Made by a program: the position numbers and the translations under genes. The notes beneath the pieces are model-generated. The model ran no database searches. It worked only from the letters and a program-made list of their open reading frames with translations, and was not told where the DNA came from. Shown in pieces: positions 25,620-53,242 of a stretch of DNA of 64,000 nt (position 1 is the stretch's first letter; each line of letters opens with the position of its first letter). The DNA is from Thermococcus sp. M39 (lineage in GTDB: Archaea; Methanobacteriota_B; Thermococci; Thermococcales; Thermococcaceae), in the NCBI RefSeq assembly GCF_012027325.1, contig NZ_SNUG01000002.1, positions 389,211 to 453,210 of the forward strand, given 5' to 3'.

Positions 25620-26318
25620 TTATGGTGCTGTATCCATACAAAATGTTCCATATTCGACACAACGATTACAGGCTTCATAGCACCAAGGACATTCACTCAG
25701 AACACATCCAAGGAAATATGCCAGGTTGCCTGTCCATACACATGCGCCACAACATGCTATAGTACAGGGTATGTTATAATCTCTACTACAGCAATAGGAC
25801 ATGCAAAGGAAGGCGCAGTCTGCATCACTGGAACATTCGTGTTTACAGGTGCTTAAGGGTGTTACCTCACCATTTGTAGTCACAGCTTTAGTCGTTATTC
25901 TTTTGTTATCCTCTGAAGTTGTGAATTCTAACAGGTAGCTTCTTGTCTTAACTCCTTGAACTGGTTTTGAGAATTCATAATAAGCTATCACGTGCTTGCC
26001 ATCTTTTAAGGGAATCCCCATGGCAAGCATTGTTATCTTTTCGCCGCTGTAATCTACTGTGTGCTTTACTATTTTGACGTTCTTATAATCAACCTCCCAG
26101 GGCTTTGCTAATCCTCGTATATCCTTACTTAAAACTGCCTTAAAGAACACGTGAATCCTCGACCAGTTTTCTGGTGTTTTCTCTACGGGCTTAACTGCCT
26201 TAAAAGGATTTACACAACCCTTAACTTCTGGAAGCTTTGGATTGTTCAAAGCATACGCTGCATACGCTCCAACCAAAAGCAACACCACAAACATGCCCAA
26301 CAATGCCCTTCTCCTCAT
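25620..26318 (-). CDS. secreted cysteine-rich protein, candidate halocin C8-like archaeocin precursor
   Basis: 232 aa from the ATG at 26318. Residues 1-24 are a signal or anchor segment (RRR, then LLGMFVVLLLVGAYAAYA). Residues about 50-155 form a beta-rich middle domain (IVKHTVDYSGEKITMLAMG, HVIAYYEFSKPV). Residues 158-227 hold 16 cysteines, including CC pairs and spaced CxxxC pairs, and end EACNRC...C. The three-part layout (signal, about 100-aa globular domain, cysteine-rich tail) recalls the halocin C8 precursor, where the N-terminal part is the immunity protein and the tail is the mature peptide. Ten G residues precede the start. Homology is inferred by eye; other disulphide-rich surface proteins remain possible. 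Confidence 0.7.
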   Translation of the reverse strand: MRRRALLGMFVVLLLVGAYAAYALNNPKLPEVKGCVNPFKAVKPVEKTPENWSRIHVFFKAVLSKDIRGLAKPWEVDYKNVKIVKHTVDYSGEKITMLAMGIPLKDGKHVIAYYEFSKPVQGVKTRSYLLEFTTSEDNKRITTKAVTTNGEVTPLSTCKHECSSDADCAFLCMSYCCSRDYNIPCTIACCGACVWTGNLAYFLGCVLSECPWCYEACNRCVEYGTFCMDTAP

Positions 26319-26529
26319 CCGCCCCCCCCCCAACGGACTATCATATAAATTTTGCAACCAAAAATTATAAAAATTTCGTGAACTAAAAGTTTAAAACCTG
26401 ACAAAATTCAGATGAGGTATTAGTATTAATCCTAAAACAACTTAAAGAAGTATCCATATCACAGTGTCTTAGAGAGCACAAAGACAGTAAGAGTAATACT
26501 TAAAACTACCCTTGAAACTACTTTCGGTT

Positions 26530-47578: not shown

Positions 47579-48003
47579 CACTCCTCACCTATCTTAATGT
47601 ATAAGTAGCCCAACACGAATATAAGACCTGCGATTGCAAAGAGCTTTAGGGCATCCAATTCTTTGAAATCAGAAGCAACAACAAGCTTTTGAATGAGAGC
47701 TACTATTCCAACTTCTAATATGTGGGTCAGGCTAACACGGTGCTGCCTTAAGTAGATTATCAGAATTCTATAAGTCTCTATGAGAATTATCGTAACAAGG
47801 ACATTTGCAATCAATAGTTTAGGCTCAGCAACTTTGTATGTGAGCTTGAAGTTCAAATAAATGGAGTACATTGTGAGATAGAGTATAAAGAACAAGGATA
47901 CCATAACTACCATATCAAAGCATATCTCAAGGGTCTTTCTGAAGGCTTTATGAACCTGCGTATATTGGGCGACTTTCTCTTCTTCCATCTTTGCCATTTT
48001 CAT
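47578..48003 (-). CDS. PsiE-family membrane protein
   Basis: About 141 aa with four membrane segments (28-49, 62-80, 95-110 and 118-136). It fits the phosphate-starvation-inducible PsiE family; the role in archaea is not known. The start may be 48003, 47997 or 47988 (three in-frame ATGs); the first overlaps the D box of a C/D sRNA at 48003-48056, so a later start is more likely. It is coupled to fen by TGATG. Confidence 0.8.
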
Positions 48004-48058
48004 CAGCCTACCGGTGTGCTCATCACCCCTCAGATGAGGGGAAGGGTCATCATCACTT
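48002..48058 (-). ncRNA. C/D box sRNA guiding 2'-O-methylation
   Basis: Read on the minus strand: C ATGATGA (48053-48047), a 13-nt guide, D' CTGA (48033-48030), GGG, C' GTGATGA (48026-48020), a 13-nt guide, and D CTGA (48006-48003). The spacing is that of archaeal dual-guide sRNAs. A TATA-like ATATTTTAAA lies about 25-35 nt upstream (48082-48092). Guide targets are not assigned. The D box overlaps the first possible ATG of psiE, so the RNA and that gene share a region. Confidence 0.85.
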
Positions 48059-48325
48059 TTATTTTTCTGTCTTTGACTTTAAAATATTGTTCCCTTAAGT
48101 GAATATGTGACTTTAAAGCGATTTTGGAAAACTACTGATGGCCTGTAAATGTACATAAATTTTTGATTACTCTTCAAAGTTTTTGATTTTTAATTTTTGT
48201 GTATTTTGAAATTGGAGCCTTTTTAGTGCTTACTTTTTTTCAAAACTAATTTTACTATTGCAAATCAAAAAATTTAAATAATCTAATGGGCATAATAGTT
48301 ATGAAAACTTTCTGTGGTGATGTCA

Positions 48326-49525
48326 ATGAGGTGGAAGTTGCTTGGTGTTTTGTTACTAAGCTTGCTGGTTTTGAGTTCTTTTGGAAGCGCCACAGTGCCA
48401 AGTAATGAAGTCTCTCCAGCACTTGCTGAAAAAGCTGCCAAAACCTACGTGAATTGGATTGCTACTAACATCCCTGACTTTGAAGAGTGGAAGGGTGCAA
48501 CTCTTGGAAAACCCATCACTTACTACTTCCCCAATGGTGAGAAAAGTGCTTATGAATTTGCAGTTTTCAAGAACGGTAAAAATGTTGGATTTATCCTCAT
48601 CTCGGCAAGAAGAGACATGCCCCCAGTTTTGGAGTTCAGCAAGGCAAAACCACCAAGCTGGAATTTAGGAAAAGTTAAAGAACTCGCAGAAAAGAAAGGC
48701 TACACGACAGGAAAACTACTCTATTACGGAGCACTAACCTACAGCGTTGATATTGGAAACGGAAAAGCAATAGGCTTAAAAGACCTCAAAGTTAGGAAAT
48801 ACCCAATGAACGTGAAGCTGAAATTCAACAAAGAAAAAGCAAAAAGAGAATGGGAAGAAATTGCAAATACCATGAGTACCACAGATACAAAGGAAGTAGT
48901 GCTTCTGGCTACGTGGGTGTCGAATGAGATTGAAGGAGTGCCCTTATGGACATCTACTGATGATGGAAATACTAACGTCCAATATCCAAATAATGTAGGT
49001 CCGGACCCTGATCCATGGGATGAATGGGATGGTTGCTCACCAATATCTGCTTCAATGGTCATTGCGTATTATGAACCACAACTACAGGATGATAGGGAGG
49101 CAATAATTGATATTCTACACCATACAATGAGAACGAGTGATAGTGGTGGTACTGTGCCCGACAATATCGTTTCGGGAATAAATGACTTTTTTGTCGAATA
49201 TTACAATTTATACGGTGACCTAATAGTTGATGATCCTTTAGACCATTACTTTAGAGCTGAGATATATTGGCAATTTCCAAACTTCGGCGACTATGAGTTT
49301 ACAATGTACGATATAATTGAAGAGGTTGACAGTAATCATCCATTCTTGTTAGGCATACACACCTCAAGCTCAGAACCGGGACATACTGTAACGGGAGTAG
49401 GATATGCAGGAGGAGCAGGTTATTTTTACATAAAAGTTCATGATCCGAATGGTTTTGTCGACTACATCTTGTATGGCAATTGGGAATACGCTGATTTAGT
49501 TAAGATTAGGGCATATGAGGTGTAA
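48326..49525 (+). CDS. secreted C39-like cysteine peptidase
   Basis: 399 aa. A signal peptide (residues 1-22) is followed by an N-terminal prodomain (about 25-190). The C-terminal domain has Cys237 in EWDGCSPISASMVIAYY, His353 in PGHTVTGVGY and Asp373 in HDPNG, the triad order of peptidase family C39/papain-like folds. Bacterial C39 domains process bacteriocin leaders, but here the enzyme is secreted and free. GGTGATG lies just before the ATG at 48326. It heads a surface-protein island with three or four downstream genes. Confidence 0.82.
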   Translation: MRWKLLGVLLLSLLVLSSFGSATVPSNEVSPALAEKAAKTYVNWIATNIPDFEEWKGATLGKPITYYFPNGEKSAYEFAVFKNGKNVGFILISARRDMPPVLEFSKAKPPSWNLGKVKELAEKKGYTTGKLLYYGALTYSVDIGNGKAIGLKDLKVRKYPMNVKLKFNKEKAKREWEEIANTMSTTDTKEVVLLATWVSNEIEGVPLWTSTDDGNTNVQYPNNVGPDPDPWDEWDGCSPISASMVIAYYEPQLQDDREAIIDILHHTMRTSDSGGTVPDNIVSGINDFFVEYYNLYGDLIVDDPLDHYFRAEIYWQFPNFGDYEFTMYDIIEEVDSNHPFLLGIHTSSSEPGHTVTGVGYAGGAGYFYIKVHDPNGFVDYILYGNWEYADLVKIRAYEV

Positions 49526-49527
49526 AT

Positions 49528-50196
49528 ATGAGTACATCAAAATTTCTAAAAGTGCTCTTCCTGTTTTTACTTTTTCTTGGATTCTTAATGCTCAATTATT
49601 CACACAAATATAGAAGTAGGATAACTGAAACTGAGACGATGGAAAATATCGAAAAACTAAAACAAGTTCCTGAGGGTCCTTCTCCAGTTAAGGTTTTATA
49701 CTATTCCCTTTGTGATAGCAGTCTTTCACAGCCATTACCGTTTAAAGAATCTAACTGGACTTCTGGATATCAATTTGACCTTAAGAATTATCTGTTAAAA
49801 ACCGAAGGCATCGTTGACTCAAAAATTTCGCTTTATAGCAGTGATGCATGCAAGTACATGCCTTTCATTCGAGTGAACATATCAGAATACTTTCCCATTA
49901 ACATAACCCAAGTATATTTAGCAATTTTTGTCTATCCTTCAAACACAACACTCTGCATAAGGGAATTTGAAAACTTAAAGGCAAAAATAACACAATTAGG
50001 TTTCAAAGAATTTCAAGTTCCAAAAGAAATATCATCCAAGGAAACGCCTCATGAACGTATAATAAAGCAGGCATTGTTTACGTGGGGCAATGATACAGTA
50101 TACGTTGAATGTTCTCACTTCCTAAGCTATAACAGAATTATAATCCTCAAAGGAAAAGAAGAGGATGTCGTAAGATTGGCCTCTGTAATGAAATAG
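49528..50196 (+). CDS. membrane-anchored hypothetical protein (island paralogue 1)
   Basis: 222 aa. One N-terminal membrane anchor (residues 6-24), then an extracellular part with NxT/S sequons. The C-terminal half (LAIFVYPSNTTLCIREFENL, KQALFTWGNDTVYVECSHFL, RIIILKGKEEDV) parallels the C-terminus of the next gene's product, so the two are probably distant tandem paralogues. It starts 3 bp after the C39-like peptidase gene. Function unknown. Confidence 0.65.
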   Translation: MSTSKFLKVLFLFLLFLGFLMLNYSHKYRSRITETETMENIEKLKQVPEGPSPVKVLYYSLCDSSLSQPLPFKESNWTSGYQFDLKNYLLKTEGIVDSKISLYSSDACKYMPFIRVNISEYFPINITQVYLAIFVYPSNTTLCIREFENLKAKITQLGFKEFQVPKEISSKETPHERIIKQALFTWGNDTVYVECSHFLSYNRIIILKGKEEDVVRLASVMK

Positions 50197-50246
50197 ATAG
50201 AAATTTCAGCGACAAAGCTTATAGATTGCGATTATAAAATTTGGAG

Positions 50247-50951
50247 ATGATAAAAACGGATAATAAAGACGCTTTTGTCCTTGTGATTCTAGTATGTGGC
50301 ATTGTGCTGTCTCCCATCTTTCAGTATGCATTAATCTCCATCGCAGAGCTTTTTGGCTTAAAATTGTCTTTCTTCACAGCTTTTGTCATCCCCGCATTAG
50401 TCGTCTCATTGCTCCCAGCATTCTACGCAGAAATTTACATCAAAGAGCCTGACACTGCAATAAAAGCATTCATAGCAACATTAATCCTCGCTTTCTTCAT
50501 ACCCTTCATACTATCACTCAGAACAGGTCCAAGCCCTCAAGCGGTAGCTTACCTTACAATACCTCCAAGAGACAGATCCGGCTTTAATTCGCAAAATCAT
50601 GAATGGCTTGAAGAATATTCATTCCTCCCAAGGAACTACAACGGTATATGGGCTGGACAAGTTTCAGATTATTACATAGCAATCTACACTTGGCGTAAGA
50701 ACCTTTTCTTGGGTGAATACTTATGTAGGAGAGCCTTCAACTCTGCAGAAAAAGAATTAAAACCCAAAGGATTCGAAGAATTAAACCTAACAATTCAAAG
50801 GAAAGCCTACAAGAAAGCTATTTTATCAAACAAGACCACATTAATTTACATCGAATGCTATGAAAAACTCGGATATCCAAGATTAATCTTCCTTGTTGGG
50901 AACACCAACAAAACTGAAAAATTCCTCCGATTTATTGAAGACCTTAGATGA
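50247..50951 (+). CDS. membrane protein (island paralogue 2)
   Basis: 234 aa from the ATG at 50247 (a TTG lies two codons upstream). Three N-terminal membrane segments (about 10-30, 38-58 and 70-90) precede an extracellular domain. Its C-terminus (YIAIYTWRKN, KKAILSNKTTLIYIECYEKLGYPRL, IFLVGNTNKTEKFL) is alignable to that of the previous protein. It ends abruptly at the edge of a serine-protease remnant. A TATA-like ATTATAAAA precedes the start. Function unknown. Confidence 0.62.
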   Translation: MIKTDNKDAFVLVILVCGIVLSPIFQYALISIAELFGLKLSFFTAFVIPALVVSLLPAFYAEIYIKEPDTAIKAFIATLILAFFIPFILSLRTGPSPQAVAYLTIPPRDRSGFNSQNHEWLEEYSFLPRNYNGIWAGQVSDYYIAIYTWRKNLFLGEYLCRRAFNSAEKELKPKGFEELNLTIQRKAYKKAILSNKTTLIYIECYEKLGYPRLIFLVGNTNKTEKFLRFIEDLR

Positions 50952-51126
50952 TGGGATTTTAGAGTCAGATAGCGGTGCCCCTGTTTATTACAGAATATAT
51001 CCAACGTATAATGTTGTAATTTATGGAACAATTGTAGGTGAAGGAGAAGGAGGAGAGGTTATATACAGTCCAATTGACGGAATAGAGCAAGATTTTGGGA
51101 TCACTCTTCAGGTGACGTGGTCATAA
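50946..51126 (+). pseudogene. 3' remnant of a trypsin-like serine protease gene
   Basis: In the frame from about 50946, GILESDSGAPVYY is followed by NVVIYGTIVGEG, VIYSPIDGIEQDFGITLQVT and the stop at 51124-51126. This is the C-terminal part of a chymotrypsin-fold protease: the catalytic-serine box (GDSGGPV in most, here SDSGAPV), then the last strands. The upstream catalytic His and Asp regions are absent. The remnant starts right at the end of the preceding gene, consistent with deletion or recombination. It is probably not translated on its own. Confidence 0.7.
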
Positions 51127-51704
51127 ATAGAAACTACAGAATTGTCATTATAGCTTTAATATTTATTTTCATTTTTTACCCTTATATCTCTCATATCTTC
51201 ATTGATTATCCTCAAACGACAATCCGTGACCAGTGTGCAGCAATAAAGGGTTTTTCTATCGGTTACATGCCAACATCTAATCTTAATACGTCGTTTGTCA
51301 TTGGAAACTATATTGTAGTATCAATCCCAAACCAGGGTCCTCTTTCATACCCTTATGTGAAAGAGTGCGTATTCCAAGGAGATAGGATAATAATTGAGGT
51401 ATACATTGATAATTGCTTTGTTCCATCTTCAGAAAAAAGTGAAAGTGTTTGTCCTCTTTATGGGCATGAAGGAAGTTCCTCCGTTCTTATTGTGGGAGCT
51501 AGAAACTTTAATAAGTTCAATAAGATTCGTGTAAATATCTATACAGGATACGAGCTTGAAACAGCAAAAGTAAACAATTTAAAGCTTGAAAAGACCGTTG
51601 AATTTGATATAAGATTTTATAGCACAATGTTTAGAAGCCTAATTGTAGTGATTGCGTTTATTTTTGTCAGAATAATGAAATTGCTGTTTCAGAGATTACC
51701 ATGA
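51117..51704 (+). CDS. membrane protein of the secretome island
   Basis: 195 aa. A hydrophobic N-terminal segment (about 8-28) and a C-terminal membrane segment (about 170-190) flank an extracellular part with cysteines (CAAIKGF, VKECVFQG, DNCFVPSSEKSESVCPLYG). GTG at 51117 is the only plausible start seen; it overlaps the end of the protease remnant by 10 bp, and AGGTGA is just upstream. No recognised family. Confidence 0.6.
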   Translation: MVINRNYRIVIIALIFIFIFYPYISHIFIDYPQTTIRDQCAAIKGFSIGYMPTSNLNTSFVIGNYIVVSIPNQGPLSYPYVKECVFQGDRIIIEVYIDNCFVPSSEKSESVCPLYGHEGSSSVLIVGARNFNKFNKIRVNIYTGYELETAKVNNLKLEKTVEFDIRFYSTMFRSLIVVIAFIFVRIMKLLFQRLP

Positions 51705-51764
51705 GATAATGGTGGAAATCCTCTCACCCAACAATTGTTCAAAACCATTGTTTATTTTAACAAG

Positions 51765-51784
51765 TGCCGATAGGACAATCGGCA
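51765..51784. promoter_or_regulatory. hairpin/inverted repeat upstream of acdA
   Basis: TGCCGAT (51765-51771) and ATCGGCA (51778-51784) form a perfect 7-bp stem around AGGACA. It is about 25 bp before a TATA-like AGTTATAAC and about 90 bp before acdA. It could be an operator, a terminator for the island, or an insertion scar. Confidence 0.4.
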
Positions 51785-51853
51785 AATTGATAAGAGAAAA
51801 GTTATAACTGATTTTTCAGATTAACCTTTGTAAAGTTTATCGAGGTGAAGGAA

Positions 51854-53242
51854 ATGAGTATTGAGGCACTATTCAAGCCAAAGAGCGTTGCCGTCATTGG
51901 AGCTTCTGGAAAGCCAGGAAAGATAGGCTATGCCATCATGAAGAACCTCATTGAGTACGGCTATGAAGGAAAAATATATGCAGTCAATGTCAAAGGCGGA
52001 GAAATTGAGATAGACGGGAGAAAATTCAAGGTTTACAAGAGTATTCTTGATGTTCCTGATGAAGTTGATATGGCTGTTGTTGTTGTCCCAGCCAAGTTTG
52101 TTCCTCAGGTTGTTGAGGAATGTGGAAAGAAAGGAGTTAAAGTATTACCTATCATAAGCTCAGGATTTGGTGAGCTTGGACCAGAAGGCAAAAAGATCGA
52201 AGAGCAGCTGGTAGAGACAGCCCACAAGTATGGAATGAGAATTCTCGGTCCAAACATCTTTGGTGTCGTTTACACCCCAGCAAAGCTCAACGCAACCTTT
52301 GGTCCAACAGATGTTATGCCAGGCAATTTAGCCTTGATCAGCCAGAGCGGTGCTCTCGGTATAGCTCTTATGGGATGGACAATTCTCGAGAAAGTTGGTC
52401 TCTCAGCAGTTGTCAGCGTTGGAAACAAGAGCGACATTGATGATGCCGACCTTTTGGAGTACTTCAAAGACGACGAGAACACAAAGGCAATCCTCATCTA
52501 CATGGAAGGTGTCAAAGACGGTAGGAAGTTCATGGAAGTTGCAAAAGAGGTTAGCATGAAGAAGCCAATCATAGTCATTAAGGCCGGAAGAAGTGAGAGG
52601 GGTGCAAAGGCAGCGGCATCACACACAGGTAGCTTAGCAGGTGCTGATAGCATTTACACCGCAGCATTCAAGCAGAGCGGTGTTTTGAGAGCATTAACAA
52701 TTGGCGAAGCCTTCGACTGGGCAAGAACACTCAGCAACTTACCAGAACCACCAGGAGAAAACGTTGTAATTATCACAAACGGCGGTGGAATTGGAGTTAT
52801 GGCTACTGATGCAGCTGAAGAGGAAGGATTAAAGCTCTATGACAACCTTGAGGAGCTTAAGATCTTTGCAAACCACATGCCACCATTCGGAAGCTACAAG
52901 AACCCGGTTGACTTGACTGGTATGGCAGATGCAAAGGCTTATGAGGGTGCTATTAGAGATGCTTTAGCCCATCCAGAGATGCATGCAGTAGCTGTTCTCT
53001 ACTGTCAGACCGCTGTTTTAGACCCAAGAGACCTTGCAAGGATAGTCATTGATGCGTACGAGGAGAGCGGAAAGAAGAAGCCAATAGTCGTTGCAATCGT
53101 TGGTGGAATTGAGGCAAAGGAGGCAATTGACATTCTCAACGAGAACGGAATTCCAGCATACCCAGAGCCAGAGAGGGCTATCAAGTCACTGGCCGCTCTG
53201 TACAGATGGAGCAAGTGGAAGGCCAGCAAGAGAAAAGAGTGA
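51854..53242 (+). CDS. acdA: Acetate-CoA ligase (ADP-forming), alpha subunit
   Basis: 462 aa, the length of the Pyrococcus furiosus ACD I alpha subunit. It makes acetate and ATP from acetyl-CoA, ADP and phosphate, the main energy-yielding step of peptide and sugar fermentation in Thermococcales. VAVIGASGKPGKIGYA is the CoA-binding start; ALISQSGALG follows; the AASHTGSLAG segment carries the phosphorylated His. The beta subunit is not in this window. GAGGTGAAGG precedes the ATG at 51854. Confidence 0.96.
   Translation: MSIEALFKPKSVAVIGASGKPGKIGYAIMKNLIEYGYEGKIYAVNVKGGEIEIDGRKFKVYKSILDVPDEVDMAVVVVPAKFVPQVVEECGKKGVKVLPIISSGFGELGPEGKKIEEQLVETAHKYGMRILGPNIFGVVYTPAKLNATFGPTDVMPGNLALISQSGALGIALMGWTILEKVGLSAVVSVGNKSDIDDADLLEYFKDDENTKAILIYMEGVKDGRKFMEVAKEVSMKKPIIVIKAGRSERGAKAAASHTGSLAGADSIYTAAFKQSGVLRALTIGEAFDWARTLSNLPEPPGENVVIITNGGGIGVMATDAAEEEGLKLYDNLEELKIFANHMPPFGSYKNPVDLTGMADAKAYEGAIRDALAHPEMHAVAVLYCQTAVLDPRDLARIVIDAYEESGKKKPIVVAIVGGIEAKEAIDILNENGIPAYPEPERAIKSLAALYRWSKWKASKRKE

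Follow-up and report, generated by a model that had tools for sequence, protein, structure and literature searches.

The window, that is, the whole 64,000-nucleotide stretch of Thermococcus sp. M39 DNA that was analysed, carries at positions 48326-51704 a locus that is probably one allele of a polymorphic cassette of the Thermococcaceae, in which a secreted protease is paired with a membrane-bound guard. A role in conflict is the best reading of this cassette, with the protease presumed to kill and the partner to confer immunity, and the whole looks like a so far unrecognised weapon-and-shield system.

The head gene and its predicted zymogen

The head ORF (48314-49525, plus strand) starts with the ATG at 48326 and encodes an intact peptidase of 399 aa (48326-49525) featuring one N-terminal hydrophobic segment in the hydropathy profile (Table 1). 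The best Pfam model is Peptidase_C39_2, matching residues 228-375 with an E-value of 2.8e-7, above its cut-off, while the pro-region gave a sub-threshold match to Inhibitor_I69 (8.9e-4). The active-site residues Cys237, His353 and His372 are invariant in 23/23 full-length family members. At the position of the canonical third catalytic acid after His372, some members have D and others T, N or S. A profile search against PDB sequences returned weak papain-type matches (best E 0.009), and Phmmer against PDB sequences gave no match for the window peptidase or the L067 head.

Table 1. Features of the protease locus in window coordinates
Feature	Position	Strand	Basis
Leader DNA, TATA-like TTTAAATA	48273-48280, within 48273..48325	+	direct sequence
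Ribosome-binding-like GGTGAT ahead of the start ATG	48316-48321	+	direct sequence
Signal peptide, 22 codons, constant leader	48326..48391	+	leader profile A1, DNA identity
Pro-region, about residues 26-165, constant domain	48401..48820	+	zymogen superposition, constancy tests, sub-threshold Inhibitor_I69
Papain-like catalytic domain, residues 200-399 and stop codon	48923..49525	+	Pfam, fold search
Catalytic residues Cys237 (codon 49034-49036), His353, His372	inside 48923..49525	+	family alignment
M1 (222 aa), single membrane segment near the N-terminus	49528..50196	+	ORF list, hydropathy
M2, 234-236 aa, about 3 membrane segments and ectodomain	50247..50951 (ORF 50241-50951)	+	hydropathy
Orphan tail from the C-terminus of a secreted S1 (trypsin-like) protease	50962..51126	+	sequence match
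M3, 195 aa, membrane-anchored, two membrane segments	51117..51704	+	ORF list, hydropathy

Fold comparison was carried out with a predicted model of the peptidase (pLDDT 83). The full-length structural matches of this model, covering both domains, are pro-streptopain (residues 27-397, Z 17.5, 245 aligned, rmsd 3.2), prointerpain A and prostaphopain B (residues 25-399, Z 15.2, 258 aligned, rmsd 5.0), and staphopain and streptopain also rank among the best fold matches. The C39 domains of ABC transporters (PCAT1/ComA) matched only the catalytic domain of the model, with Z of about 13. The predicted architecture is that of a two-domain secreted zymogen. The C39 fold itself is present, but it is common to other papain-like families. 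The neighbouring ORFs are M1, M2, the S1 tail, M3, a PsiE family gene and an acetate-CoA ligase alpha gene, and no ABC transporter ORF was found among the genes at the locus by ORF list and Pfam. A C39 enzyme processing bacteriocin leaders was rejected on the predicted zymogen fold and the gene context devoid of an ABC transporter. Of the original prediction of a maturation or defence set, defence is retained as the best reading, and the maturation of bacteriocin leaders is not supported.

Coupling of the protease with membrane proteins

The proposal that a secreted peptidase is followed by membrane proteins was borne out, and the M1 ORF begins 2 nt past the peptidase stop. The M1 ectodomain carries 4 Cys; of the 6 N-x-S/T sites of the protein, 5 lie in this ectodomain. 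M2, whose first ATG lies at 50247 and whose ORF counted from 50241 comprises 236 aa, is a distant paralogue of M1. A gene 91% identical to M1 follows a relative of the window peptidase in Thermococcus sp. S144_40, and an M2-type gene comes directly after the peptidase in genomes G009 and G022. The cysteines described earlier as scattered do occur in the membrane proteins, but they are not merely scattered, with two of them invariant across 14 relatives of M1 and M2.

Downstream of M2, the orphan S1 tail keeps the D-S-G-A-P-V active-serine motif, the remainder of the gene being absent, and shares 46% identity with the G011 protease over residues 400-451 of the latter. This fragment (50962-51126) had gone unnoticed in the original prediction. 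M3 overlaps the tail by 10 nt, and whole S1 genes overlap their partner genes similarly in G011 and G072. M3 is possibly the partner remaining from a displaced trypsin-like cassette; a forced alignment with the G011-type S1 partner gave 18-20% and no recognisable relationship.

A membrane protein lies directly after the peptidase in 22 of the 23 full-length Thermococcaceae copies. By a strict count, requiring a membrane ORF of at least 90 aa within -60 to 100 nt, this held for 20/23 copies versus 50/339 other ORFs of at least 150 aa from these loci (Fisher p 5e-13). The recurrence of peptidase and membrane gene as a coupled unit, which had been anticipated as one set, is accordingly well supported at the sequence level. 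The 23 copies were taken as full-length from 42 genome match rows. Fragments were set aside, as were one frame-shifted copy in G124 (L002/L216), one truncated copy in G047 (L053) and one partial copy in G011 (L055).

Matches to the peptidase family were found in 29/121 genomes searched, and in 39/115 genomes of a phylum-wide search, 38 of these belonging to the family Thermococcaceae; a contig scan of genomes yielded 14 candidate stretches, 2 of which proved to be relatives. The site that the locus occupies in the window is empty in most relatives examined, and filled sites hold differing contents. None of the 32 candidate stretches on viral contigs was a relative, and only four distant homologues turned up on haloarchaeal plasmids, with no adjacent same-strand gene among the neighbours listed. 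Cargo of a mobile element was rejected because of these viral and plasmid results.

The partners are of several unrelated-looking kinds, including 1-TM ectodomain and multi-pass proteins. Partner class A6 is homologous to both A5 (hhalign E 5e-8) and A7 (hhalign E 4e-23). M1 and M2 matched the large 1-TM partner class weakly (hhalign E 0.025 and 0.063) and could not be securely joined to the A5-A7 classes (hhalign E 0.063, 0.025 and 0.66), and one guard family uniting all partners by homology was not borne out.

Constant leader, exchangeable cassette

The leader DNA ahead of the head gene aligns with the region upstream of trypsin-like and other head genes. Compared with trypsin-like heads (24 pairs), DNA identity is 0.79 over the 66 nt of the signal peptide and falls to 0.24 over the next 64 nt. 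At 8 loci, pro-region identity was 0.76 within versus 0.75 between partner classes, and catalytic-domain identity was 0.80 within versus 0.44 between them, a partner-class split as extreme being reached in 1/56 relabellings. At 9 further loci, all with an A6-type partner (L057 was omitted because its partner ORF is broken), mean identity was 0.88 for the pro-region and 0.49 for the catalytic domain. The catalytic domain correlated with the partner at r 0.97, with a partial r of 0.96 and a Mantel p of 0.0002, and the partial r between pro-region and partner was -0.03. As read from these alignments, the signal peptide and pro-region are constant, and the catalytic domain and membrane partner change together.

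The unrelated trypsin-like class appears to follow the same rule. In a descriptive comparison of 6 sequences (4 within and 11 between pairs), identity was 0.73 within and 0.67 between for the pro-region, and 0.65 and 0.35 for the catalytic domain; the active site H277/D319/S403 is kept in 6/6. The same leader DNA also precedes other heads, and the analysis covered 10 such heads out of 52 leader matches. One DUF6345 protein and two proteins of no assigned class on this leader are perhaps further weapons. Leftovers were found as well: L036 retains, beside its own class, a multi-pass guard 84% DNA-identical to that of L042, genes of the 1-TM class persist in L038, L039 and L041, and S1 protease fragments lie in L063 and L064.

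Mechanism, alternatives and relation to known systems

In the proposed mechanism, the promoter, signal peptide and pro-region of the head gene would be constant and its catalytic domain exchangeable, and its product would leave the cell through Sec as an inactive zymogen. Once outside, it would lose the pro-region, and the mature papain-like enzyme may cleave proteins on the surface of related competitors. The downstream membrane protein would display an extracytoplasmic domain that binds and presumably inhibits the cognate catalytic domain, sparing the producer and sister cells of the same allele. New cassettes would arrive by recombination in the constant leader/pro-region, carrying catalytic domain and guard jointly, and replaced cassettes would leave behind old guards and broken protease tails. 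The sequences themselves show the coupling, the constant/variable split, the co-segregation of catalytic domain and partner, the leftovers and the active-site conservation; zymogen activation, target, partner inhibition and competition are inferred. Speaking against the mechanism are the varying residue at the third catalytic position, the diversity of partner kinds, the weak match of M1 and M2 to the large 1-TM class, the lack of a known inhibitor fold among PDB matches of the M2 ectodomain at E 0.001, and the four haloarchaeal plasmid homologues with no adjacent same-strand gene listed. A wider reading, nearly as likely as not, is that Thermococcaceae fight at contact or diffusion range with zymogen proteases of at least two unrelated folds, papain-like and trypsin-like, on one interchangeable Sec leader, each with a co-inherited membrane guard.

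Alternatively, the downstream proteins may be chaperones or anchors for folding, export or surface hold of a protease serving nutrition or surface remodelling, which is unlikely. Adjacency and co-segregation are equally expected of a dedicated folding partner, and co-segregation could also come from a dedicated export factor. The model of the M2 ectodomain had no PDB fold match at E 0.001, known inhibitors included, and its weak matches, with Z at most 8.8 in every row, include SciW, EagT6 and DcrB, which are toxin chaperones and envelope proteins. However, a nutritional enzyme need not swap unrelated protease folds on one leader, partners of foreign classes persist without their protease, and help with folding would already be expected from the constant pro-region itself.

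A locus for surface variation or self-recognition, with the protease folds as surface or signalling ligands rather than enzymes, would fit the lineage and the hypervariable layout of secreted head and variable membrane genes described in the available text on VARTIG modules (PMC8416519); it is very unlikely, given the strict retention of catalytic residues in the papain-like and trypsin-like classes and the lack of an Ig domain in the window head gene by Pfam.

The least probable reading, that the peptidase matures the cysteine-rich precursor encoded at 26318 or another secreted precursor, with the membrane proteins as immunity to the product, draws on the position of that gene in the same window, 22 kb off, and on protease-activated precursors of haloarchaea, antimicrobial ones included (available text of PMC12893001), but is opposed by the predicted zymogen architecture unlike that of ABC-transporter C39 proteins, by full-length relatives, in which no small gene for a precursor separates protease and guard, by the 9-locus test, where it is the catalytic domain that the partner follows, and by the absent co-occurrence of peptidase and 26318 family, which is present in 40/94 family genomes (Fisher p 0.29 when any copy counts and 0.81 when only full-length ones do). 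The originally predicted tie to this gene was rejected on the latter result; cleavage of its product by the peptidase is unsupported rather than refuted.

If the cassette is indeed a weapon-and-shield system, hyperthermophilic archaea own a recognisable one with identified enzymes. As each catalytic domain goes strictly with its partner, ready-made cognate and non-cognate pairs are available, testable in genetically tractable Thermococcus, the common leader is a route to more effectors, and the partners may be heat-stable protease inhibitors of a new class. No paper describing this type of locus came up in our literature search; it may have been mentioned earlier in Makarova 2019 mBio, which reportedly deals with polymorphic toxin systems in archaea.

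The C39 bacteriocin-leader peptidases PCAT1 and ComA share the papain-like catalytic fold, whereas the window enzyme possesses a signal peptide and pro-domain and lacks an ABC transporter. Staphopain-staphostatin (C47), streptopain-Spi and the Bacteroides C10 operons likewise encode a secreted papain-like zymogen with the same two-domain superposition and, in the available texts, a directly adjoining specific inhibitor-like gene, where this locus has the putative guard, the coupled inhibitor of streptopain and staphopain kin protecting the producer (PMC3462683, PMC8443034). In contrast to those inhibitors, the partner here is membrane-anchored, often tandem and not recognisably staphostatin or Spi, and the catalytic domain and partner swap as a cassette, with another protease class possible on the same leader.

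Polymorphic toxin systems, as far as described in the available part of Zhang 2012 (PMC3482391), share the constant N-terminus with an exchangeable C-terminal enzyme domain, which was found here as well; they also have guard genes next to the toxin gene, in the place of the putative guard here, arrays of several guards, and orphan tails. Orphan tails and extra partners occur in the window, L063, L064, L036, L038, L039 and L041. That source lists papain-like domains, one C39-like among them, as polymorphic-toxin domains, and most guard superfamilies are reportedly absent from archaea. Different from these toxins, the heads here are small Sec-secreted zymogens of about 400-460 aa with a pro-region, and no large repeat or injection machinery was seen.

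VARTIG modules resemble the cassette as Thermococcales-specific hypervariable islands with a secreted head and variable membrane genes, the latter being found downstream here too. Their heads are large Ig-domain proteins (arCOG07710), whereas those described here are intact proteases, the window head being a 399-aa peptidase with no Ig match in Pfam. According to the available text (PMC8416519), the VARTIG authors found no toxin domain, and the cassette, if the proposal is true, supplies what they missed for their Thermococcales islands.

The island and its secreted peptidase

On contig 2 of the Thermococcaceae genome G000, the island lies between a psiE-like gene with its companion, which we take to be FEN1, and the acetate-CoA ligase alpha gene. 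All island genes share one strand, and G+C is lower in 48001-52000 (0.369) than in the rest (0.38-0.44).

Features of the window and of loci fetched from related genomes (L numbers)
Feature	Position	Strand
Secreted peptidase, 399 aa	48326-49525	+
M1, membrane protein	49528-50196	+
M2, membrane protein	50247-50951	+
Orphan trypsin-like tail	50962-51126	+
M3, membrane protein	51117-51704	+
Secreted protein, cysteine-rich C-terminal part	25620-26318	-
G run (10 G)	26321-26330	
DUF6345 protein	L218:1734-2489	
Head protein, no confident family match	L067:7937-8965	
Head protein, no confident family match	L160:1501-2355	
~460-aa secreted protein	L063:9294-10715	
~460-aa secreted protein	L062:9728-11177	
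~460-aa secreted protein	L070:8190-9575	

The peptidase is assigned to Pfam Peptidase_C39_2. Active sites are retained, with Cys237 (the window protein has no other cysteine), His353 and His372 identical in 23/23 full-length relatives, among which the residue following His372, often Asp in papain-like enzymes, varies. The top fold matches of its AlphaFold2 model (pLDDT 83, from 21 sequences) were prostaphopain B (E 8.5e-8) and pro-streptopain. Nearly the entire chain was superposed on pro-streptopain (245 residues at Z 17.5 and rmsd 3.2), prointerpain A (229 residues at Z 15.3 and rmsd 3.6) and prostaphopain B (258 residues at Z 15.2 and rmsd 5.0), whereas ABC-transporter C39 domains matched residues 203-399 only (Z about 13), and on this predicted structure the streptopain/staphopain layout of a secreted zymogen describes the protein best.

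Co-inheritance of the catalytic domain and the membrane partner

The original prediction of a secreted cysteine peptidase adjoined by cysteine-bearing membrane proteins was borne out: 2 nt separate the peptidase stop from the M1 start, with GAGGTG within the final peptidase codons ahead of M1, and the next same-strand ORF has a membrane segment in 22/23 loci. Under a strict rule (partner ORF of at least 90 aa, spacing -60 to 100 nt), a membrane partner followed 20/23 peptidases versus 50/339 other ORFs of the same loci (Fisher p 5e-13). The secreted head and its partner form one unit. Partners are often encoded in tandem and come in two kinds: single-segment proteins whose ectodomain bears cysteines, and small multi-pass proteins. 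Frequent N-x-S/T sites (6 in M1, 3 in M2) and a cysteine pair invariant in M1/M2 and relatives suggest that M1 and M2 carry an extracytoplasmic domain. The M2 model (pLDDT 75) features an alpha/beta ectodomain, for which no PDB fold matched at E 0.001 (top Z 8.8). L080, L083 and L085 encode proteins apparently with two M1/M2-like ectodomain copies, away from any detected protease head, which are possible orphan guards.

The catalytic domain is co-inherited with the partner ectodomain. In a set of eight loci, of which three have single-segment partners and five have multi-pass ones, identity within and between partner classes was 0.759 and 0.746 for the pro-region and 0.796 and 0.436 for the catalytic domain; of 56 labellings, none but the true one was as extreme. 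Heads resemble one another in DNA from the upstream flank through the signal peptide to the pro-region, and lose this similarity across most of the catalytic domain. Nine further loci gave mean identities of 0.49 for the catalytic domain and 0.88 for the pro-region; partner-ectodomain similarity followed catalytic-domain similarity (r 0.969, Mantel p 0.0002; partial r 0.96 with the pro-region accounted for), and the pro-region-partner correlation was -0.03 once the catalytic domain was accounted for. Their partners have a constant tail (0.73) and a variable ectodomain (0.31). Besides its own single-segment partner, L036 has a multi-pass gene 84% identical in DNA to that of L042, and L038, L039 and L041 retain single-segment-class genes; these extra genes are leftovers of the other allele.

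Other heads, and cassettes gained, lost and exchanged

Several genomes encode a secreted trypsin-like protease, unrelated in fold class to the window peptidase, with Pfam Trypsin above cut-off in one member (E 4e-5), weak or unmatched in the others, and with His277, Asp319 and Ser403 retained in 6/6. In DNA its signal peptide matches that of the window peptidase, with a mean identity of 0.79 over 66 nt in 24 pairs, dropping to 0.24 over the following 64 nt. Within and between partner types (4 and 11 pairs), identity was 0.73 and 0.67 for the pro-region and 0.65 and 0.35 for the catalytic domain; judged by these sequence identities, the trypsin-like class obeys the same rules as the papain-like class.

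The leader profile matched 37/94 family genomes at E <=0.05, weak rows including likely chance signal peptides. By our count 19 places reached E 1e-8: 12 trypsin-like heads, intact or broken, 4 papain-like ones, two class-unassigned heads (one in G066, one in G041) and one cut by a contig end. A head in G137 had a weaker leader match (E 7e-6) and DUF6345 above cut-off (E 3e-9). A membrane ORF lay within 94 nt downstream of 9/10 other leader-bearing heads examined, the exception being L067, where adjoining reading frames look frame-shifted. The DUF6345 protein of L218, which has a similar leader and overlaps a membrane ORF, is likely a further effector class. The L067 and L160 heads share the leader, and L160 has one sub-threshold LssY_C match. 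The related ~460-aa proteins adjoin or stand near trypsin-like heads, with a weak DUF5711 match in L070 and a split into two frames in L062.

Cassettes have been gained, lost and exchanged, with remains left behind. In 17 family genomes the fetched stretch contained psiE (by a weak match in G050) as well as the ligase gene, and in 13 of these the two are only about 200-310 nt apart. The other four sites are filled: one has the cassette of the window, and the rest are those of G009 (contig matching Thermococcus sp. JdFR-02; peptidase+M2 cassette), G011 (trypsin-like cassette) and G004 (lone, frame-broken M3). In G001 a contig end follows a broken M2 beside psiE. S144_40 (G124), a close relative, nearly equals the window's composite, in the order frame-shifted peptidase, M1, truncated M2, multi-pass gene, trypsin-like tail and S1-type (trypsin-like) partner. 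From these site contents, the window's trypsin-like tail and M3 are best read as putative remnants of a cassette that was displaced, a reading qualified by the lack of clear homology between M3 and known S1 partners.

The family profile was present in 39/115 phylum genomes, 38 in Thermococcaceae and one a weak match outside. No peptidase relatives were confirmed in the viral contigs searched; four distant homologues lie on haloarchaeal plasmids, with no paired same-strand gene beside them in gene listings.

The cysteine-rich gene and the proposed function

The suggested link between the peptidase and the cysteine-rich precursor was not upheld: the genes are 22 kb apart, and presence of the precursor family (40/94 Thermococcaceae genomes) is independent of the peptidase (counts 19/19/21/35, p 0.29) and of its full-length form (9/14/31/40, p 0.81). 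The precursor's layout may resemble that of halocin C8-type pro-proteins. The G run directly ahead of its start codon varies from about 5 to 12 in relatives (L111, L112, L113, L114 and L118), possibly as a length-variable ribosome-binding tract.

For the head-partner unit, the main rival reading is that the partner is a dedicated folding or anchoring protein. In the reading proposed here, the secreted enzyme would attack competitors and the membrane partner would shield the producer. Elsewhere, streptopain and staphopain genes are paired with genes for inhibitors that are believed to safeguard the producing cell (PMC3462683; PMC8443034), and polymorphic systems deploy papain-like domains as toxins (PMC3482391).
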